Assembly: GCA_029258655.1 (NCBI GenBank)
Contig: JARHYD010000076.1
Location: 1-39,018, forward strand
Direction: 5' to 3'
DNA length: 39,018 nt
Source of the DNA: Mailhella sp.
GTDB lineage: Bacteria; Desulfobacterota; Desulfovibrionia; Desulfovibrionales; Desulfovibrionaceae
Each line of letters opens with the position of its first letter. Within the stretch, counting starts at the first letter, position 1. The position numbers and the translations under genes are program-made. This document shows positions 1 to 12,661 of this stretch, piece by piece. The notes beneath the pieces are model-generated. The model had not been told where the DNA came from. It did not search any database and worked only from the letters and a program-made list of their open reading frames with translations.

Positions 1-121
1 TGCTGTTTTTTACCAACATAGGAGCTATTACAGCCCATTTTTCATCAGAAATATCATGTCTACTCATAAATAAAGTTAAACATATAATTAAAAATATGTC
101 CAGTTTTTTTAGAGACAGCTC
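1..121 (-). mobile_element. End of an IS5-family element, cut by the window edge
   Basis: Read on the minus strand, an ATG at position 67 opens a frame to the window edge that begins MSRHDISDEKWAVIAPML. This is the typical N-terminus of IS5/IS427-group transposases (compare MSRYKLKDEH in the element at 11833). The outer end is AT-rich and starts around position 121 with GAGCTGTCTCTAAAAAAAC. It abuts a CTAG that interrupts the IS1595 remnant to the right, so this element probably inserted into that older one. The other end and the rest of the transposase lie outside the window, so it cannot be judged intact or dead. Confidence 0.6.
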
Positions 122-253
122 CTAGCAAAATTTAATGGTTTAACAGATGATAAATTTATATTGCATTTAAAAGAATGTGAATGTAGGTTTAATTTTAGAA
201 ATGAAAATTTTACAAAATTTATAGAAAAACTTTATTTCAAAAATAAAAAGTGA
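122..253 (+). pseudogene. IS1595-family transposase, C-terminal remnant
   Basis: From about position 125 an open frame reads AKFNGLTDDKFILHLKEC, then RFNFRNENF, and stops at 251-253. This resembles the C-terminal end of IS1595 (ISXO2-like) transposases, which usually carry an AKFNG motif and an ESExRFNxR motif here. No upstream part of the gene is present because the IS5-type end at 1-121 interrupts it. It is a fragment and cannot encode a working transposase. Confidence 0.6.
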
Positions 254-254
254 T

Positions 255-1060
255 GGTCTAAAACCTGTTTTTATTATACCCTCTTTTGCCCCATTGTTTT
301 TGTCAAATAAGATCTGCAAAGAAAAAATCTATTTTAAGTTCTTTTTTGATTTGATTATGACAAGCAAATTCCTTTCCTCTATCTGAGGTAACAGATTTCA
401 TAGCTCCTTTGGGTAAAATAGAAAAAAGATAGATTATTGCTTCTTTCATTGCATGGGCTATTTTTTTTTATTACTTGTAAATGCTGTGAGTAATCTTGAT
501 TTTCTTTCTACATAAGTAAAAATTACATCTTTGCTTTCACCTCTGCTTGAATGAATACTATCAAGTTCCCAATGTCCAAATTCACTACGATTATTTACTT
601 TTTCCGAGCGTTCTCTTATTGATACTTTATTTGAAAATATTCCTCTTTTCTCAATTCCTTTTCGTTTTTTGCCTTTATGACGCAACACTTAAAAATTATT
701 TGAATTTATTTTTCCTCTATATATCCAATTGTAACTAGTTTTTAAAGCTTATTTTTTTATGTAATACTGTATTTGCAATTTGTTTAGGTGACCATGTACA
801 CTGTAACTTTTCTTCAATAATAATTGCAATATCTCGTGATAATTTTGTTTTACCAAAAATTGTTTTTCTTTTTTTATTATACTTATTCTAAGTAGTTATA
901 GAATTATAGTTGTCTTTATTTCTTTGCAGTTCCCTCGCAATAGTTGAATGATGTTGCCCCATTAAATTAGCAATTTTTCTATAACTATTATTTTACATCA
1001 AGGTTTTGCATTGGGCTACTTTTTTTATACTTGTCGCACTTCGTTTTATAATTAACTAAA
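255..1060 (-). pseudogene. IS30-family transposase, heavily decayed
   Basis: On the minus strand, pieces of one IS30-type transposase appear in order but in different frames and broken by stops. An HTH-like piece reads YRKIANLMGQHHSTIAREL (about 985-925). A middle piece reads SRDIAIIIEEKLQCTWSPKQ. The catalytic region then gives RSEFGHWELDSI and VERKSRLL (about 690-480) and SDRGKEFACH (about 390-360). The final E-containing block that normally follows FADPY is lost: the frame ends at a TGA near 310 and continues as unrelated-looking sequence. IS30 transposases are DDE enzymes of about 320-350 residues; this copy has several stops and shifts and is dead. Confidence 0.75.
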
Positions 1061-1128
1061 AATAAAAGAATAGGTTGAAACGATTTCTAACAAACTATTT
1101 TAGTAAATTAAATTTATAAATAATTTGT

Positions 1129-1157
1129 TTGACATATATATATATATATACTAAATT
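1129..1157 (+). promoter_or_regulatory. Promoter of the heptose operon with TA repeat in the spacer
   Basis: A consensus -35 box TTGACA lies at 1129-1134, followed by a 17-base spacer and a -10-like TAAATT at 1152-1157. The spacer is almost entirely an alternating AT run (1134-1150). The start codon of the first operon gene is at 1188, with an AGGAAA ribosome site just before it. Each TA unit gained or lost by slippage would change the -35/-10 spacing by two bases, so this could be a length-dependent promoter switch. Confidence 0.55.
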
Positions 1158-1187
1158 CTAATAAATTTATTATATATAGGAAATCAA

Positions 1188-2210
1188 ATGAAAGCATTAA
1201 TAACTGGTATTACAGGTATGGTTGGATCTCATTTGGCAGATTACCTTATTGAGCATACAGATTGGGAAATTTATGGATTATGTCGTTGGCGTAGTCCGTT
1301 AGATAATATTTCACATTTAATTGATAATATAAATAATAAAAATAGAATACATCTTGTTTATGGAGATTTACGTGATTCTTTATCAATGGATAATGTTGTA
1401 AAAGATGTTATGCCAGATTATGTTTTTCATCTAGCTGCTCAAAGTTATCCTAAAACAAGTTTTGATGCTCCATTAGATACACTAGATACTAATATTCAAG
1501 GTACAACAAGATTATTAGAAGCATTAAAAAAATATACGCCTAAAGCTATTATTCATGTTTGTGCCTCTTCTGAAGTTTTTGGACGAGTTTCAAAAGAAAA
1601 ATTAGAGGAAATGGGAGGTATTATTAATGAAGAATGTACTTTTCATCCCGCATCACCTTATGCCATTTCAAAAGTAGGAACAGATTTAGTGGGTAGATAC
1701 TATGCAGAGGCTTTTGGTATGACAGTAATGACTACTCGTATGTTTACACACACTGGTCCTCGTAGAGGAGATGTTTTTGCTGAAAGTACTTTTGCAAAGC
1801 AAATAGCTATGATAGAAGCAGGATTAATTCCACCAGTTATAAAAGTTGGAAATCTTGATTCATTAAGAACTTTTGCAGATGTTCGAGATGCTGTTCGTGC
1901 TTATTATATGCTTGTAACTGAAAACCCTATTCCAGGTGAATATTATAATATTGGTGGAGCATATACTTGTAAAGTAGGTGAAATGCTTAATTATTTGCTT
2001 TCATTATCAACTTTAAAAGATAAAATATCCATCGAAATAGATCCAGAAAGAATACGCCCTATTGATGCTGATTTACAAATTCCTGATACTCGTAAATTTG
2101 AAAAACACTGTGGATGGAAACCAGAAATATGTTTTGAAAAAACAATGCAAGATTTGCTTGACTATTGGAGAAAACGTATTGCTAATGGCGAAAAATTTTT
2201 ACAACGGTAA
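1188..2210 (+). CDS. GDP-mannose/GDP-heptose 4,6-dehydratase-like SDR enzyme
   Basis: This 340-residue extended SDR protein resembles GDP-mannose 4,6-dehydratases and the capsule enzymes that act on GDP-manno-heptose (WcbK/DmhA/DdahA group). The N-terminal NAD(P)-binding loop is GITGMVGSH (residues 7-15). The catalytic Ser/Thr region is CASSEVFG (125-132), with the YxxxK pair at Tyr158 and Lys162. The first step would be formation of a GDP-4-keto-6-deoxy sugar. Because gmhA, hddA and hddC-gmhB follow within the same operon, GDP-D-glycero-D-manno-heptose is the more likely substrate than GDP-mannose. That choice is inferred from context, not seen in the active site. It is the first gene behind the 1129 promoter, with AGGAAA upstream of the ATG, and is five bases from gmhA. 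Confidence 0.85.
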   Translation: MKALITGITGMVGSHLADYLIEHTDWEIYGLCRWRSPLDNISHLIDNINNKNRIHLVYGDLRDSLSMDNVVKDVMPDYVFHLAAQSYPKTSFDAPLDTLDTNIQGTTRLLEALKKYTPKAIIHVCASSEVFGRVSKEKLEEMGGIINEECTFHPASPYAISKVGTDLVGRYYAEAFGMTVMTTRMFTHTGPRRGDVFAESTFAKQIAMIEAGLIPPVIKVGNLDSLRTFADVRDAVRAYYMLVTENPIPGEYYNIGGAYTCKVGEMLNYLLSLSTLKDKISIEIDPERIRPIDADLQIPDTRKFEKHCGWKPEICFEKTMQDLLDYWRKRIANGEKFLQR

Positions 2211-2215
2211 AAATT

Positions 2216-2779
2216 ATGAATACTATTAAGTTATTAGATGAAATAATAAAAAATTTTACTTTATTAAAAAATAAACATGATATTATTGAAAAAATAGCTC
2301 AAACTTGGATAACTTCTATAAAAAATGGTAATAAAGTAATTTTTTGTGGTAATGGAGGTTCTGCTGCAGATTCACAACATTTAGCAGCAGAACTTATGGG
2401 TAGATATTTAATTGATAGAAATCCAATGCCTGCTATGAGTCTAACTGTGGATACATCAGCACTTACTGCTATTGGAAATGATTATGGATATGAAAATATT
2501 TTTTCTAGGCAATTAAAAGGGGTAGGAAAAAAAGGTGATTGTTTAGTAGGTATTTCTACTTCTGGTAATTCAAAAAATATTATTGAAGCTTTTAAGGTAG
2601 CTAAAGATAAGGAGATTATCACAATAGCTTTTACTGGTAATTCTGGTGGGGAAATGTTGAAGTTGGCTGATATTACATTAAATGTACCTTCTGAAATAAC
2701 AAATAATATTCAAGAAATGCATATAGCTTGTGGGCATATTATTTGCGGTATTGTTGAAAATAATTTTTTTGGTCAATAG
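2216..2779 (+). CDS. gmhA: Sedoheptulose-7-phosphate isomerase
   Basis: A 187-residue SIS-domain protein of the usual GmhA length. It converts sedoheptulose 7-phosphate to D-glycero-D-manno-heptose 7-phosphate, the first committed step of heptose-nucleotide synthesis in the cytosol. The phosphosugar-binding sequence GNGGSAADSQHLAAEL (about residues 45-60) includes the family's catalytic Glu, and the C-terminal EMHIACGHIICGIVE holds the catalytic His region. A second SIS loop, GISTSGNSKNI, is also present. It sits five bases after the dehydratase and two bases before hddA. This copy may be dedicated to the GDP-heptose branch, with the core-LPS gmhA elsewhere; that is inference from the adjacent hddA and hddC. 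Confidence 0.93.
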   Translation: MNTIKLLDEIIKNFTLLKNKHDIIEKIAQTWITSIKNGNKVIFCGNGGSAADSQHLAAELMGRYLIDRNPMPAMSLTVDTSALTAIGNDYGYENIFSRQLKGVGKKGDCLVGISTSGNSKNIIEAFKVAKDKEIITIAFTGNSGGEMLKLADITLNVPSEITNNIQEMHIACGHIICGIVENNFFGQ

Positions 2780-2781
2780 TT

Positions 2782-3843
2782 ATGATTTTAATACGTACTC
2801 CTTATAGAATATCTTTTTTTGGTGGTGGAACAGATTATTATGGCTGGTATGAGCGTTATGGTGGAGATGTATTATCTACAACAATTAATCAATATAATTA
2901 TTTAACTTGTCGTTATTCTTCTCCTTTTGATACTGAATTTAGAAATAGAATTTCATGGCGAATTAATGAAAATACCACACGAATTGAAGATATTCAACAT
3001 AATGCTGTACGAGAAGCTTTATTATATCATGGGGTAAAACGTGGTATTGAAATTATCCATCAAAGTGATCTACCTGCCCGTTCTGGATTGGCATCATCGT
3101 CATCATTTTGTGCTGGTTTATTGAAAGCAATTTATACGTTAAAAGGTGAAATGATAACAAAATATGGGTTAGCACGTGAAACAATTCGCTTAGAAAGAGA
3201 AATATTAAAGGAACAAGGTGGAATACAAGATCAAATAGCTGTTGTTTATGGGGGATTAAATTATATCCATATTAATCATAATGGTAGTTTTAGTGTTGAA
3301 CCTATTATTATTTCTGAAGAAAGAAAAGAACTTTTAAATAGTCATTTATTATTATTCTTTACAGGATTATCTCGAAATTCTTTTGAAATTGCACAAAAAC
3401 AAGTTGAAAATATTACAGTCAAAGAAAAACAACTTACACGTATGCAACAAATGGTTTTCGAAGCATGTGAGATTCTTAATAGTGATAATGATATAAAATT
3501 ATTTGGTGAGTTATTAGATGAGACTTGGCAGTTAAAACGTTCTTTAGCAACTGATATTTCAAATAATTTTATAGATAATATTTATACTGTTGCAAAAGAA
3601 AATGGAGCAATAGGAGGTAAAATTTTGGGAGCTGGTGGAGGTGGATTTATTTTACTTTTTGCTGATCCAGAAAAGCATAAAAATATAAAACAAGTATTAC
3701 ATAAACTTATTTATGTTCCATTTAAATTTGATGATCAAGGTTGTCAAACATTATTTTATGCACCGAAAGAGTATGATAAAGCCGTTTATGAAAAACGTGA
3801 TTTTCTTTTTTCACAACATGAACTAGGTAATATTATTTTATGA
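2782..3843 (+). CDS. hddA: D-glycero-alpha-D-manno-heptose 7-phosphate kinase
   Basis: A 353-residue GHMP-family kinase matching HddA in length and motifs. It phosphorylates D-glycero-alpha-D-manno-heptose 7-phosphate at C1 in the GDP-heptose pathway. The N-terminus IRTPYRISFFGGGTDY is the substrate-binding GHMP motif 1. The phosphate-binding loop is PARSGLASSSSFCAGLL (about 97-113). The C-terminal motif is KILGAGGGGFILLF (about 281-294). Its TGA stop overlaps the ATG of the next gene (ATGA), so the two are probably translationally coupled. HddA, as opposed to HldE, marks this as the GDP-linked, alpha-anomer branch used for capsule, S-layer and O-antigen heptoses. Confidence 0.93.
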   Translation: MILIRTPYRISFFGGGTDYYGWYERYGGDVLSTTINQYNYLTCRYSSPFDTEFRNRISWRINENTTRIEDIQHNAVREALLYHGVKRGIEIIHQSDLPARSGLASSSSFCAGLLKAIYTLKGEMITKYGLARETIRLEREILKEQGGIQDQIAVVYGGLNYIHINHNGSFSVEPIIISEERKELLNSHLLLFFTGLSRNSFEIAQKQVENITVKEKQLTRMQQMVFEACEILNSDNDIKLFGELLDETWQLKRSLATDISNNFIDNIYTVAKENGAIGGKILGAGGGGFILLFADPEKHKNIKQVLHKLIYVPFKFDDQGCQTLFYAPKEYDKAVYEKRDFLFSQHELGNIIL

Positions 3844-5009
3844 AAGTAATAATTTTAGCAGGTGGATTAGGTACACGGTTACGAGATGTAATAAATGATG
3901 TTCCTAAGCCAATGGCAGATATAAATGGAAGACCATTTTTAGAATTATTATTGGATAATTTACTTTTTTTTGGGGCATCAGAATTTATTATATGTGTTTC
4001 TTATTTAAAAGAACATATAATAAATTATTTTGGAACTAATTATAAAACTATTCCTATTTATTATTCAGTAGAAGAAGAACCACTTGGAACAGGTGGAGCT
4101 ATAAAACAAGCTTTTGAATTATACCATATTGAAAACGCATTAGTTATTAATGGTGATAGTTTTTTACAACTTGATTATGCTCAATTTTATAAGCAAAATT
4201 TAGAACAAAAATTAGCAATAGCACTTCGCTATGTTGAAAATGCAAATAGATATGGTTTAGTTGAGCTAAAAAATAACATAGTTAAATCATTTACAGAAAA
4301 AAAAGATGAGCAAAAAGCTGGTTACATTAATGGTGGGATTTATTATATAAATAAATCTTTATTTGAAAATACTACTAAAAAAGTTTTTTCTTTTGAAACA
4401 GAAATTTTAGAAAAAGTTGTTCATGAAATAAATGTACCTGCAATAATTGCTGATAATTATTTTATAGATATTGGTATTCCAGAAAGTTATTATAAAGCTT
4501 GTAATGAACTTATTGATATTGTTTATCCTAATAAAGCTATTTTTTTAGATAGAGATGGGGTAATTAATGTTGATAAAAATTACGTTCATAAAATAGAAGA
4601 TTGTGAATTTATTGAGGGAATATTTGATTTTTGTCGAAAAGCAAAAACGCAAGGTTATCTTCTTATTGTAATTACTAATCAGGCAGGTATAGGAAAAGGG
4701 TATTTTTCTATAGAACAATATAATATTTTTATGGATTATATTAAAGAGCAATTTATAAAAGAAAACTGTCCGCTTGATGATATTTTTTTCTGTCCTTACC
4801 ATATAGATGGAATAGGTGGCTATAAATTAGATTCAATAGATAGAAAACCTAATCCCGGTATGATTTGGAAAGCATGTGCAAAACATAAAATTAATGTACA
4901 ACAATCTATTTTAATTGGTGATAAAGAAACAGATATTGAAGCTGGCAAACAAGCTAATATTTCAAATTGTATTTTGTTAAAAGATAATAACTTTGAAGGA
5001 ATATTGTAA
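3840..5009 (+). CDS. hddC-gmhB: Fused heptose-1-P guanylyltransferase and heptose-1,7-bisphosphatase
   Basis: A 389-residue two-domain protein. Residues 1 to about 228 are a nucleotidyltransferase like HddC, with AGGLGTRLRDV (7-17), VPKPMADING (21-30) and the metal-binding INGDSF (103-108). Residues about 230-389 are a HAD-family D,D-heptose 1,7-bisphosphate phosphatase like GmhB. There the nucleophile and acid are Asp237 and Asp239 in FLDRDGVIN, and ITNQAGIGKG and LIGDKETDIEAG follow. One polypeptide therefore removes the 7-phosphate and then loads GMP on C1. The zinc-binding Cys/His set of classical GmhB is incomplete: CPYH is present at 318-321, but the later Cys-x-Cys before RKPNPGM is absent. 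It overlaps hddA by four bases. Confidence 0.9.
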   Translation: MKVIILAGGLGTRLRDVINDVPKPMADINGRPFLELLLDNLLFFGASEFIICVSYLKEHIINYFGTNYKTIPIYYSVEEEPLGTGGAIKQAFELYHIENALVINGDSFLQLDYAQFYKQNLEQKLAIALRYVENANRYGLVELKNNIVKSFTEKKDEQKAGYINGGIYYINKSLFENTTKKVFSFETEILEKVVHEINVPAIIADNYFIDIGIPESYYKACNELIDIVYPNKAIFLDRDGVINVDKNYVHKIEDCEFIEGIFDFCRKAKTQGYLLIVITNQAGIGKGYFSIEQYNIFMDYIKEQFIKENCPLDDIFFCPYHIDGIGGYKLDSIDRKPNPGMIWKACAKHKINVQQSILIGDKETDIEAGKQANISNCILLKDNNFEGIL

Positions 5010-5076
5010 TTATGTTGGTAGAAATATGATAATGAATTTTATCTAATTTGTTTAACACTATAAAAAAGGAAGTTAT

Positions 5077-5616
5077 ATGTCGTTTGATTTTGAAATTACT
5101 GAATCTCAAAAAATAAAAGGTGTATATATTATAAAACCTTCAATTGGAAGAGATCTTCGTGGTACTATTTGGACTTCATTTTATAAAGATGAAATTGAAA
5201 AACTTTTACCAGAGGGATTATATTTTAAACATGATAAATTTTCACAATCAAGAAAAGATGTTTTACGAGGTATACATGGTGATCATAAATCATGGAAGCT
5301 AGTAACATCAGTATATGGTGAAATTCATCAATATGCTGTTGATTGTAGAAAAGATTCTCCGACTTATTTACAATATGAAGAATTTATTATTAATTCAGAG
5401 AATCAAATTTTACTTCTACTTCCTCCTTTTATTGGTAATGCTCAATATGTAACAAGTGATTATTCTGTATATCATTATAAATATGCTTATCATGGTGAAT
5501 ATGCTGATGTTCATGAACAATTTACTTATGCATGGAATGATCCTAAAATTAATATAAAGTGGCCTACTGATCATCCAATTTTATCAGCAAGAGATATAAA
5601 GCATATAACAAATTAG
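5077..5616 (+). CDS. RmlC-like GDP-4-keto-6-deoxyheptose 3/5-epimerase
   Basis: A 179-residue cupin of the dTDP-4-dehydrorhamnose 3,5-epimerase (RmlC) family. The catalytic base is His67 in LRGIHGDH, and Tyr134 in the YHYKYAYHGEY stretch fits the position of the family's catalytic acid. In Campylobacter capsule pathways, RmlC-like enzymes (DdahB, MlghB) epimerise C3 and/or C5 of GDP-4-keto-6-deoxy-heptose. The flanking hdd genes suggest the same use here rather than dTDP-rhamnose synthesis, since no rmlA, rmlB or rmlD is nearby. A 67-base gap separates it from hddC-gmhB, with a clear AAGGAAG ribosome site and no convincing extra promoter. Stereochemistry (C3, C5 or both) cannot be read from the sequence. 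Confidence 0.82.
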   Translation: MSFDFEITESQKIKGVYIIKPSIGRDLRGTIWTSFYKDEIEKLLPEGLYFKHDKFSQSRKDVLRGIHGDHKSWKLVTSVYGEIHQYAVDCRKDSPTYLQYEEFIINSENQILLLLPPFIGNAQYVTSDYSVYHYKYAYHGEYADVHEQFTYAWNDPKINIKWPTDHPILSARDIKHITN

Positions 5617-5625
5617 GAAGTAGTT

Positions 5626-6675
5626 ATGAATAAAGATAGTAAAATTTATATTGCAGGACATAGAGGTATAGCTGGGTCAGCTTTATTATCCTATTTACAA
5701 AAAAAAGAATATTCAAATGTTATTATTAAAACCCATAGTGAACTTGATCTCTGTGATTCAAAAGCTACAGCAGATTTTTTTGCAGAAGAAAAACCAGAAT
5801 ATGTGTTTTTTGCTGCAGTTTTACCATGTGGGATAGCTAACTCACAATATCGAGCTGATTTCATTTATAAAAATACTATGATGCAGGCAAATGTTATTCA
5901 TAATAGTTATGTGAATAATGTGAAAAAATTACTATGCTATAGCAGTAGTTATGTATATCCTAAAAATGTTACTTCCCCAATAACTGAAGATAGACTATTA
6001 ACTGGAGAACTTGAATATTTTTGTGAACCATTTGCAGTAGCAAAAATTAATGCAATGAAAATGTGTGAATCATATAATATTCAATATGGAACAAATTTTT
6101 TAGTTGCATTACTTATTAATCTTTATGGTAATAACGGTAATTTTGATTTAGAAACAGCTAGAGTTATGCATGCACTTATCAGAAAAATGCATTTAGGAAA
6201 ATTATTAATTGAAGATAATGAAGAAGCTGTTTTAAAAGATTTAAATATGACATCAATAGCTGATGCAAGAGAATACCTTCAACGATTTGGTTTAACTAAA
6301 AAAAGTGTTGAAATTTGGGGAACAGGTAAATCCAAACGTGAATTTTTGCATAGTTATGATATGGCAGACGCAAGCCACTATTTAATGCAACATATTAATT
6401 TTTCTGATCTTTATAATAAAGATGCTAAAGAAATTAGAAATACCCATATTAATATGGGGACAGGGATATCAACAACAATTCGCGAACTAGCTGAAACAGT
6501 ACAAAAAGTAGTTGGATATGCAGGGGAATTATTTTTCAATACTGAAAAACCAGATAGTGCTATTGACAGAGTTAGCGATTGTAGCAAATTAAAAAATTTA
6601 GGCTGGAATCCTAAAATTACTTTAGAAAATGGCATTTCACAAATGTATAACTGGTATTTAACAAGTAATAATTAA
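5626..6675 (+). CDS. GDP-fucose-synthase-like SDR reductase with altered catalytic residues
   Basis: A 349-residue SDR protein related to GDP-L-fucose synthase (Fcl/WcaG) and the Campylobacter C4-reductases that finish GDP-6-deoxy-heptoses (DdahC/MlghC). The cofactor loop is AGHRGIAGSA (10-19). The numbering lines up with Fcl: Ser107 and Lys140 are kept, but the usual catalytic Tyr136 is Phe (CEPFAVAK), Cys109 is Tyr (SSSYVYPK) and the position of His179 is Arg. Cys109 and His179 serve the epimerase half-reactions of Fcl, so their loss fits an enzyme that leaves epimerisation to the preceding gene. Loss of the Tyr is odd for a reductase. It sits nine bases after the epimerase gene, with a GGAAG ribosome site. 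Confidence 0.82.
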   Translation: MNKDSKIYIAGHRGIAGSALLSYLQKKEYSNVIIKTHSELDLCDSKATADFFAEEKPEYVFFAAVLPCGIANSQYRADFIYKNTMMQANVIHNSYVNNVKKLLCYSSSYVYPKNVTSPITEDRLLTGELEYFCEPFAVAKINAMKMCESYNIQYGTNFLVALLINLYGNNGNFDLETARVMHALIRKMHLGKLLIEDNEEAVLKDLNMTSIADAREYLQRFGLTKKSVEIWGTGKSKREFLHSYDMADASHYLMQHINFSDLYNKDAKEIRNTHINMGTGISTTIRELAETVQKVVGYAGELFFNTEKPDSAIDRVSDCSKLKNLGWNPKITLENGISQMYNWYLTSNN

Positions 6676-6684
6676 GGAGTTTTT

Positions 6685-7845
6685 ATGTACAATTATTCAT
6701 TAGCATCATCAAGTTGGGATAATAAAGAATTAGAAGCAATTCAAAGTGTAATAAATTCTGGTATATATACAATGGGAAATAATGTTGCTCATTTTGAAAA
6801 AGAATTTGCTTCATTTGTAGGTAGTAAATATTGTGTAATGGTAAATTCTGGTTCTAGTGCTAATCTACTTGCAATTGCAGCTCTTTTTTATACTAAACAC
6901 CCTAAATTAAAAAGAGGTGATGAGGTTATTGTTCCAGCTGTTTCTTGGTCTACAACTTTCTTTCCTTTACAACAATATGGGTTAAAACTAAAATTTGTTG
7001 ATATTGATCTTCAAACACTTAACTATGATTTAAATGCATTAAAAAATGCTATTAGTGATTCAACCAAAATGATTATGGTGGTAAATCTTTTAGGTAATCC
7101 TAATGACTTTGATGAGATTAATAAAATTATTAATGGAAAAGATATTATCATAATTGAAGATAACTGTGAATCAATGGGAGCAACGTATAGAGGAAAACAA
7201 ACAGGAACTTTTGGTTTAATTGGTACATTTTCGAGTTTCTTTTCTCATCATATTGCTACAATGGAAGGTGGCTTAATTGTAACTGATGATGAAGAATTAT
7301 ACCATGTAATTTTATGTTTAAGAGCTCATGGCTGGACAAGAAATCTTCCAAAAGAAAATAAAATAAGCAATAAAAGTGATAATCCTTTTGAAGAATCTTT
7401 TAGGTTTATTCTACCTGGTTATAATGTTCGTCCTGTTGAAATGAGTGGTGCTATTGGACGTGAACAATTAAAAAAACTTCCTGATTTTCTTAAAAATAGA
7501 AGAGATAATGCAGAATATTTTTTAAATTTATTTGAAAATAGTGAAGATTATTATGTGCAAAAAAATATCGATAATAGTTCATGGTTTGGATTTTCACTAA
7601 TTATAAAACCAAACTCTGGTAAAAAACGTGAAGAAATTTTACAAAAGCTTAGTGAAAATAATATAGAGCATAGACCTATTGTTTCAGGTAATTTTGCAAA
7701 AAATGCAGTTTTAAAATATTTTGATTATGAAATTCCAGGTGAATTACCAAATGCTAATTATATGGATAATTATGGATTTTTTGTTGGTAATCATCAGTTT
7801 GATATAAAAGAACATATAAATATGTTGTATTCATTAATAAAATAA
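6685..7845 (+). CDS. ColD-like PLP sugar 3-dehydratase (DegT/DnrJ/EryC1 fold)
   Basis: A 386-residue member of the DegT/DnrJ/EryC1 aminotransferase fold. Instead of the Schiff-base Lys it has His-His at 188-189 in SSFFSHHIATMEGG, with His188 in the position known for GDP-4-keto-6-deoxymannose 3-dehydratase (ColD, about 388 residues). It also has NSGSSANLLA (54-63), which binds the PLP phosphate, and IIEDNCESMGA (156-166) with the pyridine-binding Asp. The C-terminal cysteine cluster of iron-sulfur E1/RfbH dehydratases is not seen, favouring the ColD type. ColD-like enzymes remove the C3 hydroxyl of 4-keto-6-deoxy sugars. In this GDP-heptose operon it may yield a 3,6-dideoxy-heptose; GDP-colitose chemistry is the alternative. 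It is the last gene before the 7849 terminator. Confidence 0.85.
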   Translation: MYNYSLASSSWDNKELEAIQSVINSGIYTMGNNVAHFEKEFASFVGSKYCVMVNSGSSANLLAIAALFYTKHPKLKRGDEVIVPAVSWSTTFFPLQQYGLKLKFVDIDLQTLNYDLNALKNAISDSTKMIMVVNLLGNPNDFDEINKIINGKDIIIIEDNCESMGATYRGKQTGTFGLIGTFSSFFSHHIATMEGGLIVTDDEELYHVILCLRAHGWTRNLPKENKISNKSDNPFEESFRFILPGYNVRPVEMSGAIGREQLKKLPDFLKNRRDNAEYFLNLFENSEDYYVQKNIDNSSWFGFSLIIKPNSGKKREEILQKLSENNIEHRPIVSGNFAKNAVLKYFDYEIPGELPNANYMDNYGFFVGNHQFDIKEHINMLYSLIK

Positions 7846-7848
7846 AAA

Positions 7849-7880
7849 AAAGTCCTTATTATGAAAATAATAAGGACTTT
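7849..7880. terminator. Bidirectional terminator between convergent glycan operons
   Basis: A perfect 14-base-pair stem (AAAGTCCTTATTAT / ATAATAAGGACTTT) encloses a GAAA tetraloop. A-rich sequence on its left gives a U-tract for minus-strand transcripts; on the plus strand the stem itself ends in TTT. It lies between the stop of the plus-strand heptose operon (7845) and the stop of the minus-strand cluster (7898). Confidence 0.85.
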
Positions 7881-7897
7881 AAAAAATATTATATATA

Positions 7898-8746
7898 TTA
7901 CTTGGTTATAATTACACTAGAGTATTTGTCAATTACGGGAATAAAGTTGATATCATTTTCTTTACAAAATTGGTCAACAGCTTTTTTTACTCCTGTCCAA
8001 TAACAAACACCATAATCATGTACAAATATATAACCACCTTTTACTAAGCGAGGATAAAAATAATTTAATCCTTCATAAATTGGATTATATAAATCTGTAT
8101 CTAAGCTTATAAAAGAAAATTTTTGAGAAATATTACTTGGTATTGATTTTGGAAAATATCCTTTACAGATTTGGCAATTATTTTTGTTATGCATTCTGTT
8201 CAAAACATATTCTTCTGACGTATTAGAAAAAGAAACCCCTAATATATTGTTTTCGTTTTTTAAATCTGTTTCTGGAAAACCATCAAAGGTATCAAAAAGA
8301 AATAATTTTTTATTAGGAAAATAATAGTTTAAATGATAAGAAAAGTCTCCTTTAAATACTCCAACTTCAGCCATATCACCTTCAATATTTTGAAATTTTA
8401 TTTTTTCTAGGCAAAGTTTTAATTGGGCAATTCTTAAATCATCATAAAAAATATTATTATTAAAATCCAAATAAAGAATTTTTTCTTCTGGTATGTTTAA
8501 CGCTAGTAAGCTTTCTTTCATCGCTACAAAATGATTAGGTGCAGATAAAATAATATAATCAAAATCAGTAGACATAAGATCTTCGTGAGAAATTATTGGA
8601 ATATCATAATATTGATTGAGATATGATTTATCTACATTATGTATTTTACTATCTAAAAAAGCTATGATATTATATTCATTTGTTTTTAATAGATATCTAG
8701 CAATTTTTCCATATCCAAGCATGCCAAAAATAACTACATTTTTCAT
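7898..8746 (-). CDS. TylF-type methyltransferase with N-terminal Rossmann domain
   Basis: A 282-residue protein with two parts. Residues 1 to about 100 look like a small nucleotide-binding Rossmann domain, with IFGMLGYGKIARYLL at the N-terminus. Residues about 118-282 resemble the TylF/MycF family of S-adenosylmethionine-dependent sugar O-methyltransferases, with GDMAEVGVFKGDFS as the SAM loop, FLFDTFDGFPETD, SLDTDLY and GGYIFVHDYG (metal-binding acidic residues). It is the last gene of the minus-strand cluster and overlaps the upstream SDR gene by four bases, so co-translation is likely. It probably O-methylates the sugar or polyol made by this cluster or a finished glycan; the acceptor cannot be told. 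Confidence 0.75.
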   Translation of the reverse strand: MKNVVIFGMLGYGKIARYLLKTNEYNIIAFLDSKIHNVDKSYLNQYYDIPIISHEDLMSTDFDYIILSAPNHFVAMKESLLALNIPEEKILYLDFNNNIFYDDLRIAQLKLCLEKIKFQNIEGDMAEVGVFKGDFSYHLNYYFPNKKLFLFDTFDGFPETDLKNENNILGVSFSNTSEEYVLNRMHNKNNCQICKGYFPKSIPSNISQKFSFISLDTDLYNPIYEGLNYFYPRLVKGGYIFVHDYGVCYWTGVKKAVDQFCKENDINFIPVIDKYSSVIITK

Positions 8747-9792
8747 ATTAACTCCTTAAAATTTTCTAAATAATTTTTAGTTCGCTGTAAAGCTTCTTTA
8801 ATGCTTATTTTGGGTTTCCAGCCTAGTTTTTGTAATTTAGTTGTATTTAGTTTAATTTTAACTGTTGGCGGATATTTTTTATTTTGTTCTAAATCTATCT
8901 TGATCTTGATAGAATCACTAGTTAATGTTGTGCAAAGAATAGCTAAATCTTTAATAGACATATAACTTGTTTCGTTTGATATATTATAAGCTTCACCTGA
9001 TGAACCTTTTGTTAATAAAATAATTATAGCGGCTATTGCATCAGTTGTATACAGAAAGTCCCGACATGAAAGACCTTCAGTATGCATTATTATATCAGTT
9101 TTATTAATTATTGATTTTAAAAATTGGGCAAATACTCTGTTATCATTGAGTGTTATACCAGCTCCAAAAGTCAGTGTTGGTCTTGCAATAACTATGTGAG
9201 AATTATATTCTTTTGAAGCACAGTAGCACATGGTTTCAGCCATTCTTTTTGCTTGTGGGTAGGAACTTCTTTCTTTTAAAATTTCTATATAGCCCAAGTC
9301 TGTTTCGTTGATGTATTCTGTGGTGGTAGAACCATATATTTCCATACTAGATAAAAATAACACTTTTGATTGATATTTTTTCGAATGTTCAATAACTTTT
9401 TGTGTTAACATTAAAATAGTATTGATTGTTTCGAGTGGTTTTGAAATAAAAGTGGAACTGTCAGTAATAGAAGCTGTATGAAGAACAAAATCCGTTTTAG
9501 GTAATAATTTTGTGTTTGATGTATTTATATTAAATGTTGAAAGTCCAGTAAATGATTTATAATCATTAAAAATTTGATTGAATTTATTTTCGTTACGGAT
9601 ACAAGCAATAATATCAATATGCTGATTGTGCTTTTTACAATGTGTTATAATAGCCTGTATAAAAAGACTTCCTAATAATCCTGTTGCTCCAGTAACTAAA
9701 ATTGTTTTATTATATAATTCTTGCCATGGGAGTGATAAATCAGATGAAATGGTATTTAAATCTTCTAATAATGTTAAATTAGTATGTTGCAT
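8743..9792 (-). CDS. NAD-dependent epimerase/dehydratase family protein
   Basis: A 349-residue extended SDR enzyme. The cofactor loop is VTGATGLLGSLF (about 33-44), the Ser motif is FLSSMEIYGS and the YxxxK motif is YPQAK. The C-terminal part, LGWKPKISIKEALQRT, is typical of nucleotide-sugar epimerases and dehydratases. The substrate is not recognisable. It lies next to an IspD/TarI-like cytidylyltransferase and a TagF-like transferase, so a CDP-linked sugar or polyol is the natural suggestion. SDR genes of this kind beside ispD-like genes are common in surface-polysaccharide loci. Its ATG is one base from the stop of the cytidylyltransferase gene, and it overlaps the methyltransferase by four bases. 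Confidence 0.75.
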   Translation of the reverse strand: MQHTNLTLLEDLNTISSDLSLPWQELYNKTILVTGATGLLGSLFIQAIITHCKKHNQHIDIIACIRNENKFNQIFNDYKSFTGLSTFNINTSNTKLLPKTDFVLHTASITDSSTFISKPLETINTILMLTQKVIEHSKKYQSKVLFLSSMEIYGSTTTEYINETDLGYIEILKERSSYPQAKRMAETMCYCASKEYNSHIVIARPTLTFGAGITLNDNRVFAQFLKSIINKTDIIMHTEGLSCRDFLYTTDAIAAIIILLTKGSSGEAYNISNETSYMSIKDLAILCTTLTSDSIKIKIDLEQNKKYPPTVKIKLNTTKLQKLGWKPKISIKEALQRTKNYLENFKELI

Positions 9793-9793
9793 A

Positions 9794-10513
9794 TTATATT
9801 CCCATTATTTTTAATGCATTTCTACATTCTAAGATTGCTTTAGCAATATAAAAATCTTCTGGAGTAGTTATTTTTATATTATCAGATTTACAAAGGACAA
9901 AAAATAATTCTTTGTTGTAATGTCTAACAAGGGAGGCAGAATCCACAGATAGAGAATATTTTTCATCAAATGATTTTTTATATAATTGATAAATTTCTTC
10001 AATAATAAATGTTTGTGGGGCTTTTGCTATATAACAATGATCTCTTTTTAAGATAGTATCTATTTTTGATTTTGATTCAGATAAAAAAAATGTTTCTACA
10101 GCCTTACAAGCAGTTATAGCATTACCATTTTCTAAAGCACAATTTATGTTTTCTGTAATCAGGTCTTCATCAATAAAAGGTCTGACTCCATCATGTATGA
10201 GGACTAAATCTTTTTTGTTACATTGATTATATATTTCATGTAGTCCTATAAAAATAGATTCTTGTCCAGTTTTTCCTCCAGAAGTGATTAAGGATACTTT
10301 ATTAATTTTATTGTTTTTTATTTCTTTTTTTAAAATTGATATGTAATTTTCTATACATACAACAAAGATTTCAGTAATTAAAGGATGTCGTTCAAATACT
10401 TCAATTGTATGAATAATGATAGGTTTATTATCAATTTCTAAAAATTGTTTTGGGATACCATTTGTAGACATACGAGTACCCTTTCCACCTGCAAAAATTA
10501 ATGCAATTGCCAT
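9794..10513 (-). CDS. IspD/TarI-like cytidylyltransferase
   Basis: A 239-residue cytidylyltransferase of the IspD/TarI family. The CTP-binding N-terminus is ALIFAGGKGTRMSTNGIPKQ, and HDGVRPFIDEDLI is the conserved acidic metal-binding segment. IspD makes CDP-methylerythritol for isoprenoids; TarI and Bcs1 relatives make CDP-ribitol for wall or capsule polymers. The N-terminal PKQFLEIDNKPIIIHTIE is closer to the TarI type as I remember it, and the neighbours (SDR enzyme, TagF-like transferase) point to surface glycan synthesis. The family members are close enough that the isoprenoid role is not excluded by sequence alone. It is tightly packed with both neighbours on the same strand. Confidence 0.8.
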   Translation of the reverse strand: MAIALIFAGGKGTRMSTNGIPKQFLEIDNKPIIIHTIEVFERHPLITEIFVVCIENYISILKKEIKNNKINKVSLITSGGKTGQESIFIGLHEIYNQCNKKDLVLIHDGVRPFIDEDLITENINCALENGNAITACKAVETFFLSESKSKIDTILKRDHCYIAKAPQTFIIEEIYQLYKKSFDEKYSLSVDSASLVRHYNKELFFVLCKSDNIKITTPEDFYIAKAILECRNALKIMGI

Positions 10514-10514
10514 A

Positions 10515-11648
10515 TTATTTTTCCTTGTTTTCTATTATTTCAAGAATAAATTTAGAAATTCTTTCCGTAGAATGTCCATCACAAGCACTCATATAATTTT
10601 TATAAATAAAATTTTCTGGAATTCCATTTTTAATTTTATTTATAATTTCATCAACTGAATAGCAAACACAATTAGGTGCTAAATCTTCTGGTAAAACATA
10701 AAGACATCGTTCTGTCTCAATATAATTATTTAAATCTTCTGCATAAATTAGTATTGGTTTTTTAAAAATTGAAAAATCAAATAATATTGATGAATAATCA
10801 GTGATTAAAATATCTGTTACTGAAAGAGCAAAATTTAGAGGGAGTTCTGAGAAATCAAGTACGTTATGCAGATTATTAATTTTTATTGTTGGGTGTTTTC
10901 TAATTGCAATACAATAATTAGAAGAAAGTGTATTTTGTAATTTTTGTAAGTCTAGATTATTAATATGATGTCTTCCATTTGTTTGTCTATATGTTGGTGC
11001 ATAAAGAATAATTTTCTTACCTTGACAAGATGGAAAGTCAATATTTAATTGTACTTTATTTTTTTCTATATTTTGAGAAAAAAAATTATCTGTTCTTGGT
11101 AGTCCTAGAGCAAGTACTTGATTTTCTTTTATTTTAAAAATATTTGCATAAAGCGTAGTAAGTGTTGGGTCTGAACAAATTAGATATGAAATATTTCTAT
11201 GTATCCTAGAAACACGTTTAAATTCATCATGTTGATTATGTGTTTTTCTGTATGCATCGTGACCAATACATTTATATGCACCACCTCCATGCCAACATTG
11301 AAGAAATTTAGTGTTAGGATGAAGATGTATTTTACTTGTGAAAGGTAAACTTTGGTCTTGTATAATTATTTTAGATGTAGCAATAATATAAATAATATAT
11401 AGTTTGTTATTATCATCAGTTATAATTTTAAATTGTATGTTTTTTTCTTTTAAAAAAGATGTTAAACAAATTAAATTTTGAAATTTTTGACTATTGGGTG
11501 AAAAATAAAATGTTATATTTTTCTTTTTACAGAAAAAACTGATTATATGATATAATATACTAAATAAATTGTACATAAAAATAGTGCAATGATTAAAATT
11601 TTTCGTAACTGGATAAATAATAATTTGTTGTAATTTATTTATAAGCAA
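10515..11648 (-). CDS. TagF-like CDP-glycerol/polyol phosphotransferase
   Basis: A 377-residue protein related to CDP-glycerol glycerophosphotransferases (TagF/TarF/TarL group). It carries a WHGGGAYKCIGHDAYRK motif, comparable to the catalytic HGT region, then ALGLPRTDNFF, KIILYAPTYRQ and the family hallmark LITDYSSILFDF near residues 280-292. Such enzymes transfer a polyol phosphate from a CDP donor to a glycan at the cytoplasmic face of the membrane. It is the first gene of the minus-strand cluster and probably uses the CDP compound made by the next gene. The long frame begins at TTG 11648, preceded very closely by AGG; an ATG at residue 25 lacks a ribosome site. The start is therefore uncertain. 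Confidence 0.75.
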   Translation of the reverse strand: MLINKLQQIIIYPVTKNFNHCTIFMYNLFSILYHIISFFCKKKNITFYFSPNSQKFQNLICLTSFLKEKNIQFKIITDDNNKLYIIYIIATSKIIIQDQSLPFTSKIHLHPNTKFLQCWHGGGAYKCIGHDAYRKTHNQHDEFKRVSRIHRNISYLICSDPTLTTLYANIFKIKENQVLALGLPRTDNFFSQNIEKNKVQLNIDFPSCQGKKIILYAPTYRQTNGRHHINNLDLQKLQNTLSSNYCIAIRKHPTIKINNLHNVLDFSELPLNFALSVTDILITDYSSILFDFSIFKKPILIYAEDLNNYIETERCLYVLPEDLAPNCVCYSVDEIINKIKNGIPENFIYKNYMSACDGHSTERISKFILEIIENKEK

Positions 11649-11694
11649 TACCTAATAATTATATTATTAATTTCATAAAAAACAATACATGATA

Positions 11695-11723
11695 TTAATA
11701 TAATAATTTTTATTATTGGTCAA
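11695..11723 (-). promoter_or_regulatory. Probable promoter of the minus-strand glycan cluster
   Basis: On the minus strand TTGACC (11718-11723) is followed by 17 bases and TATTAA (11695-11700). It lies about 50 bases upstream of the TTG start at 11648 and is the only good sigma-70-like pair seen in this gap. Confidence 0.4.
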
Positions 11724-11832
11724 GCAATCTTACTAAAATATTTAATTTGTAATGATATGATAGTTGATAATTCTTATTTATTTTGTTAACTTATTAAATT
11801 AATTACACGGTGTTATGTAGATAATTTGAATA

Positions 11833-12661
11833 GGGTGTGTTTCTAAATAATGCTTTTAATTTTTTTAGGAGTTATGTGAATAAATTTTATTATGAGTAGA
11901 TATAAATTAAAAGATGAACATTAGGAACTAATTTCTCTTTATTTGATTAGAAAAAAGAGTAAAGCTGACAGACTTTAACTAGTTTATGATAGAGTTATTT
12001 TTCATTTTTTGGATTTTACATACTGGTGCATTATGGCATGATTTATCAAAAGAATTTGGTGCATGGCAAACTGTTTATAAAATGTTTAATCGTTGGTCAA
12101 AAGCTTAAGTTTTTAATAGGCTTTTTGATATTTTCAAAAATGATGCAAAATTAGATTTTCTAATAATTGATAGTAGTTATGTTAAAGTACATAAGCACGG
12201 GACTAATCCCAAAGGAGGTCAAAAAAAGAAAGTATAGGTCGTAGTGTAGGTGGAATAACTACAAAAATTCATGTTGTAACTGATAGTTTAGGAACATCTT
12301 TAGATATAGTGCTTTCTTGTGGAAATAAACATGATTCACCTATTGGTTATAGTTTATTAGAAAAAATAGAAAATTCAATTATATTAGCTGATAAGACATA
12401 TAATTCTAAAAAAATAAGAGCAAAGTTAACTGAAAATAATAGTAAACTTGTATCTTCATCGAAAAAGAATGCATTAAATCCAATAGATTATGATAAATAT
12501 TTATATAAAGAATGTTATATAGTAGAATGTTATTTTAAAAAAATAAGAGAATTAAGAAGAATTGCAACACGGTATGATAAATTACAGCTTATGTATAAAA
12601 TATTTCTTATGATTGAAACTCTTATGATTTATTTAAAATAGATTAATTTGGAAACAGACCC
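11833..12661 (+). mobile_element. Inactivated IS5-family (IS427-group) insertion sequence
   Basis: The ends are imperfect inverted repeats. The left end reads GGGTGTGTTTCTAAATAAT; the right end, read inwards, is GGGTCTGTTTCCAAATTAA. A TA dinucleotide flanks both ends (11831-11832 and 12662-12663), as expected for the target duplication of this group. The 829-base length is typical. It lies directly beyond the minus-strand glycan cluster and, with the elements at 1-1060, brackets the whole surface-sugar region. The enclosed transposase gene is broken (see separate entry). Confidence 0.85.
11892..12641 (+). pseudogene. IS5-family transposase pseudogene
   Basis: Translation starts at ATG 11892 with MSRYKLKDEH, then meets TAG where Trp is expected, and more stops follow. 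Pieces in shifted frames continue the protein: LHTGALWHDLSKEFGAWQTV, FLIIDSSYVKVHKHG (first DDE Asp), and after another break GGITTKIHVVTDSLGTSLD. The last open piece (12309-12641) contains ILADKTYNSKKIR (second Asp region) and YIVECYFKKIRELRRIATRYDK, matching the C-terminal Glu region. At least three breaks make it non-functional. Some of the stops look like single-base changes, consistent with decay in an AT-biased genome. Confidence 0.85.

Follow-up and report, generated by a model that had tools for sequence, protein, structure and literature searches.

The phasomes of Campylobacter, Neisseria and Haemophilus influenzae use mainly homopolymeric or tetranucleotide repeats (for H. influenzae, PMC2651432). 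Their simple sequence repeat (SSR) loci occur preferentially in surface glycan and outer-membrane genes (PMC6321876, PMC5953494, PMC2651432). The closest described counterpart of the locus reported here is the H. influenzae hifA/hifB promoter, where (TA)9-11 determines how far the -35 and -10 boxes lie from each other (van Ham et al. 1993, cited in the review PMC2651432). Whether multi-locus phase-variable genomes are truly restricted to pathogens or merely appear so because of database bias has been called a major open question in a 2025 review (PMC11868660).

The window analysed here, a stretch of 39,018 nucleotides, comes from a probable Desulfovibrionales gut lineage that is not known as a pathogen. 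As in hif, a surface structure has a sigma-70-type promoter whose spacer contains a TA run, and the length of this repeat would change in 2-bp steps. Whereas hif is a single divergent fimbrial promoter with demonstrated variation, the promoter described here is unidirectional, precedes a sugar operon, is one of at least six in its genome and is proposed to vary. The genome also resembles the Campylobacter, Neisseria and H. influenzae phasomes (PMC6321876, PMC5953494, PMC2651432) in having many SSR loci in both promoters and reading frames, but its repeat is TA and its lineage is not one of recognized pathogens.

The type of switch is therefore already known from hif, and the novelty seems to lie in a TA repertoire spread over multiple loci of a probable Taurinivorans-like gut lineage. 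The locus is of interest because it leads to such a repertoire, for which there is no apparent earlier description. The Taurinivorans muris paper makes no mention of phase variation (PMC10507020), and in literature searches that covered few subscription journals, no paper was found joining phase variation, simple sequence repeats and Desulfovibrio, and the papers on phase variation and Bilophila were not relevant judging by their titles. The genus offers a direct test of the question of pathogen restriction.

Promoter Architecture

The first-pass annotation of this DNA had described a consensus TTGACA separated by 17 bases, nearly all of them alternating A and T, from a -10-like box. This description is exact: 16 of the 17 spacer nucleotides belong to the TA repeat, the spacer being completed by a single C at position 1151 between (TA)8 and TAAATT (table 1). 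The layout it likened to hif, with a repeat between the -35 and -10 boxes, is likewise present (TTGACA-(TA)8-C-TAAATT), albeit with a weak -10. The ATG of the first operon gene follows at position 1188. No other 16-nt TA run occurs in the window, and none of 100 dinucleotide shuffles contained such a run. Promoter-consensus matches in positions 1-12500 are not above chance (87 vs. 94.5 in shuffles) and, because a promoter scan alone performs at chance level, our argument is not built on the consensus match.

Table 1. Features of the TA promoter, its upstream region and the operon behind it (positions within the window)
Feature	Position	Strand	Evidence or comment
Degraded IS30-type transposase gene	268..1072	-	Broken frames with DDE-type stretch
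Rival promoter-like site TTTATA-17-TATAAT in IS end	1024..1052	+	10/12; score equal to TA promoter
-35 hexamer TTGACA	1129..1134	+	6/6 consensus match
(TA)8 tract, TATATATATATATATA	1135..1150	+	16/17 nt of promoter spacer; proposed slipped-strand site
Alternative -10 TATACT across 3' end of tract	1147..1152	+	5/6; 12-nt spacing at present tract length
Candidate -10 TAAATT	1152..1157	+	17-nt spacing; weak, 4/6 to TATAAT (T1, A2, A4, T6)
AGGA, probable ribosome-binding site	1178..1181	+	Sequence inspection
GDP-glycero-manno-heptose 4,6-dehydratase-like, 340 aa (operon gene 1)	1188..2210	+	Pfam GDP_Man_Dehyd 1.3e-73
GmhA, sedoheptulose-7-phosphate isomerase	2216..2779	+	TIGR00441 1.4e-61, 207.1 bits vs. 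cut-off 209.45
HddA-like heptose 7-phosphate kinase	2782..3843	+	NF049969 6.1e-42, under curated cut-off
HddC-GmhB fusion (guanylyltransferase + bisphosphate phosphatase)	3840..5009	+	NF049965 1.3e-63; TIGR00213 4.3e-50
RmlC-like 3,5-epimerase	5077..5616	+	PF00908 1.6e-36
GDP-fucose-synthase-like epimerase/reductase	5626..6675	+	PDB 7cxt/7m13/7anc, about 1e-131
DegT/DnrJ sugar aminotransferase (RfbH/PseC-like), last gene	6685..7845	+	PF01041 1.6e-80; NF011936 7.3e-82
Terminator-like stem-loop between operon and convergent minus-strand genes	7849..7880	.	

The proposal that the present 17-bp spacing represents the ON state is possible but weakly grounded, because the -10 at 17 bp matches at only four of six positions and the better TATACT is reached only at 12 bp. 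TATACT is itself weak evidence, since TATANN gives at least 4/6 at any TA tract end; a tract-end -10 (TATANT at 11-13 bp) was set aside as a shared design for the same reason. One promoter of the congener G004 reads TTGATG-17-TATAAT, and most sister promoters, with their tracts as they now stand, offer no convincing -10 candidate at 16-18 bp. These weak -10s would fit a majority of promoters in the OFF state, but would equally fit some other role.

A serious alternative start is provided by the insertion sequence end (983-1072) directly upstream of the TA promoter, from which the site with a perfect TATAAT, scoring as highly as the TA promoter, could also read into the operon. The TA tract would then be merely a 5' leader or spacer. 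We regard transcription from this outward promoter of an IS30-like end as unlikely, given that sites such as 1024-1052 are no commoner than in shuffles, that no copy of the IS end was found near the sister TA tracts (among the best 40 candidates), and that an IS-end promoter leaves unexplained the TA tracts abutting TTGACA before other surface genes. The IS30-type element is present in many partial copies in the genome, often at contig ends. Positions 1-1072 as a whole form a composite of degraded insertion sequences, comprising the IS30-type transposase and short repeats at 1-125 and 123-278, and the recurrence of this composite at many contig ends is probably the cause of assembly breaks.

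A GDP-Heptose Operon behind the TA Promoter

Seven genes on the same strand (1188-7845), with intergenic gaps of 5, 2, -4, 67, 9, and 9 nt, follow the promoter. The best PDB match of the first gene is the GDP-D-glycero-D-manno-heptose 4,6-dehydratase 7us5 (4.1e-105), and homologs of gmhA, hddA, gmhB, and hddC accompany this GDP-heptose 4,6-dehydratase in one operon, the gene complement of a GDP-heptose operon. The GDP-heptose route serves capsule or O-antigen sugars. The gene set therefore indicates an operon of the O-antigen/capsule type and not the ADP-heptose pathway of the LPS core, and the proposal of a surface-sugar operon behind the promoter is supported. The Campylobacter capsule GDP-heptose pathway (7us5) likewise combines a 4,6-dehydratase, an epimerase, and a GDP-fucose-synthase-like reductase with GmhA, HddA, HddC, and GmhB, whereas the operon described here ends with a DegT aminotransferase.

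The possibility that a TA run marks this kind of operon in general was rejected, because the corresponding operons of other gut MAGs begin without one. Homologs of the first gene with 82-87% amino acid identity are found in MAGs labelled Elusimicrobiales, Alphaproteobacteria, Akkermansia, and Gastranaerophilales, and those of the congeners are only about 30% identical. The close matches in these MAGs point either to a recent exchange of the gene between gut bacteria or to errors in MAG binning.

Recurrence of the Promoter Module

Eighteen TA tracts of at least 14 bp were located in the genome (2.14 Mb in 166 contigs), and an exact TTGACA stands 0-6 nt ahead of six of them against an expectation of 0.05 (binomial P 6.5e-12), so that several loci with the same repeat are found above chance. 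All six of these modules are oriented toward the next gene. In the congener G004, TTGACA precedes 5 of 27 tracts where 0.19 would be expected (P 1.2e-6). The TTGACA density underlying these expectations was measured outside the tracts, in the stretches read around them.

A search of 39 genomes of the order with the pattern TTGACA-N0-6-(TA)5 identified six distinct places in this genome, five in G004 and one in G022, and no match in the other 36, and the reversed pattern, used as a control, had no match in any of the 39. Counts rise further when the near-matches TTTACA, TTGATA, and TTGACT are admitted. TA tracts of 14 bp or more were found in four of the six members of the genus and in only 2 of the 53 other genomes of the order searched, which leaves 53 of the 59 with none. 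Outside the genus, a 21-bp AT run lies 7 nt behind a TTGACA and upstream of a nucleotidyltransferase gene in G011 (L194, 1766-1786), possibly an independent case. Among viral contigs, the -35-plus-TA module was matched in 19.

Genes Associated with TA Tracts

The module recurs mostly before surface-type genes. Besides the heptose operon, the genes behind TTGACA-TA in this genome encode two autotransporters (on one contig), a GNAT enzyme, a CptA-like phosphoethanolamine transferase, and an OpgB-like phosphoglycerol transferase, and a TTGATA variant precedes a TylF-type methyltransferase. Those of G004 are two autotransporters, the lipid A deacylase PagL, an amidohydrolase, and one further protein, with the TTGACT variant preceding an MBOAT acyltransferase and a second amidohydrolase.

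A second class of tracts lies within coding genes. In this genome, these encode a family-8 and a group-1 glycosyltransferase, two AT3-type acyltransferases, WcbI, a radical SAM protein, and methyltransferases; in G004 they encode ManC, RgpF, a methyltransferase, a radical SAM protein, and AT3-SGNH proteins. By tally, which is not a statistical enrichment against all genes, most tracts are found at autotransporters, lipid A/LPS-type transferases, glycosyltransferases, O-acyltransferases, and methyltransferases. Sensor kinases and amidohydrolases are likewise among the tract-bearing loci, which are therefore not only surface genes. The AT3-SGNH and AT3 acyltransferase genes of G004 (L160) and of this genome (L089/L093) carry their TA runs at differing gene positions, suggesting that the runs arose independently.

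Tract Length Changes and Probable Phase Variation

Of seven single-copy TA tracts that the congeners G005 and G004 share as orthologs, three differ in length by exactly one unit, within flanks that are identical at 160/160, 160/160, and 157/160 positions; the remaining four are of equal length. These one-unit differences in near-identical flanks show that TA tracts change length in the genus. The three differing tracts adjoin two sensor-kinase genes and one amidohydrolase gene (before it), and none is at a classic surface gene or behind an exact TTGACA. The differences yield no switching rate because the congeners are different species.

For tracts of the promoter type, the apparent length difference rests on one pair of orthologs and one pair of paralogs. 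The tract of the MBOAT acyltransferase promoter is 15 bp in G004 and 13 bp in G001, whose ortholog is 73% identical; the arrangement TTGACT-WTCC-tract-RBS is kept with one of four bases changed, and the DNA farther upstream has diverged. Two autotransporter promoters of G004, belonging to related paralogs, have tracts of 15 and 17 bp.

Among the tracts within genes, ON and OFF frames occur side by side. A G004 paralog triplet has TA repeats just after the start codon, with nine units giving an open frame of 201 aa in one copy and eight units giving only 20 aa in each of the other two. In this genome, tract C33 marks the point where one methyltransferase gene passes from one reading frame into another, and a second methyltransferase gene breaks off at its tract, C46. 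The members of the triplet are tandem paralogs (G004:740500-747500, L156), the protein of the open copy having no Pfam match, and a scan of viral contigs for the start of this paralog gave no match.

These observations bear on the reading of the TA run as a fixed structural element, that is, a bendable or easily melted spacer or a supercoiling-sensitive promoter selected for its physics and not for its instability. The four equal tracts of G004 and G005 and the length of 16 bp shared by many tracts would suit such an element, which we nevertheless think improbable: three of the seven orthologous tracts have changed by one unit amid near-identical DNA, and promoter physics does not account for tracts in coding genes with split frames. 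Least credible is the idea that a neutral microsatellite, in a genome rich in A and T (stretches read about 30% GC), came to lie behind TTGACA by accident. This reading is in keeping with the chance level of single promoter-consensus matches, but the recurrence statistics already make it unlikely: one-third of the tracts stand behind TTGACA, and all of these share the coding strand of the gene that follows. G004 also speaks against it, having equally many tracts and the same module in a less AT-rich genome (35-45% GC in the stretches read).

We consider it likely that the sigma-70-type promoter of the GDP-heptose operon holds a simple-sequence contingency locus in its spacer, the TA run, and that this locus is one of a repertoire. 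Slipped-strand mispairing would add or remove TA units at 1135-1150, the -35/-10 spacing would shift in 2-bp steps with the unit count, and the changed spacing would alter how strongly the operon is transcribed, with consequences for the surface sugar. Where TA runs lie within surface-sugar genes, they would act by frame shift instead. The idea of phase variation through a TA spacer, raised when the sequence was first annotated, has support for most but not all of its parts. In its favor are the anatomy resembling hif, the surface-sugar operon, the recurrence of the module in this genome and a congener, and the one-unit differences at other congener tracts. By inference, the tract at 1135-1150 would itself vary and would control the operon, and some of its lengths would be ON. 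The TA run at 1135-1150 probably belongs to a set of switches that turn features of the cell surface on and off at random.

With somewhat less assurance, we favor the broader picture of a taurine-respiring-type, probably harmless gut lineage with genome-wide bet-hedging by TA repeats, in which the promoter module and the reading-frame runs together would shuffle the expression of O-antigen/capsule, lipid A, and autotransporters. If this is true, phase variation at multiple loci of one genome would extend beyond the usual pathogens, and the surface sugars of a gut bacterium would be heterogeneous within one clone, with a bearing on phage sensitivity and mucosal antibody binding.

TA tracts may also be places at which assemblies break or misjoin. 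An assembly gap of N in G005 (L192, 330-675) has TA runs on both sides, and its G004 counterpart is an uninterrupted 17-bp tract.
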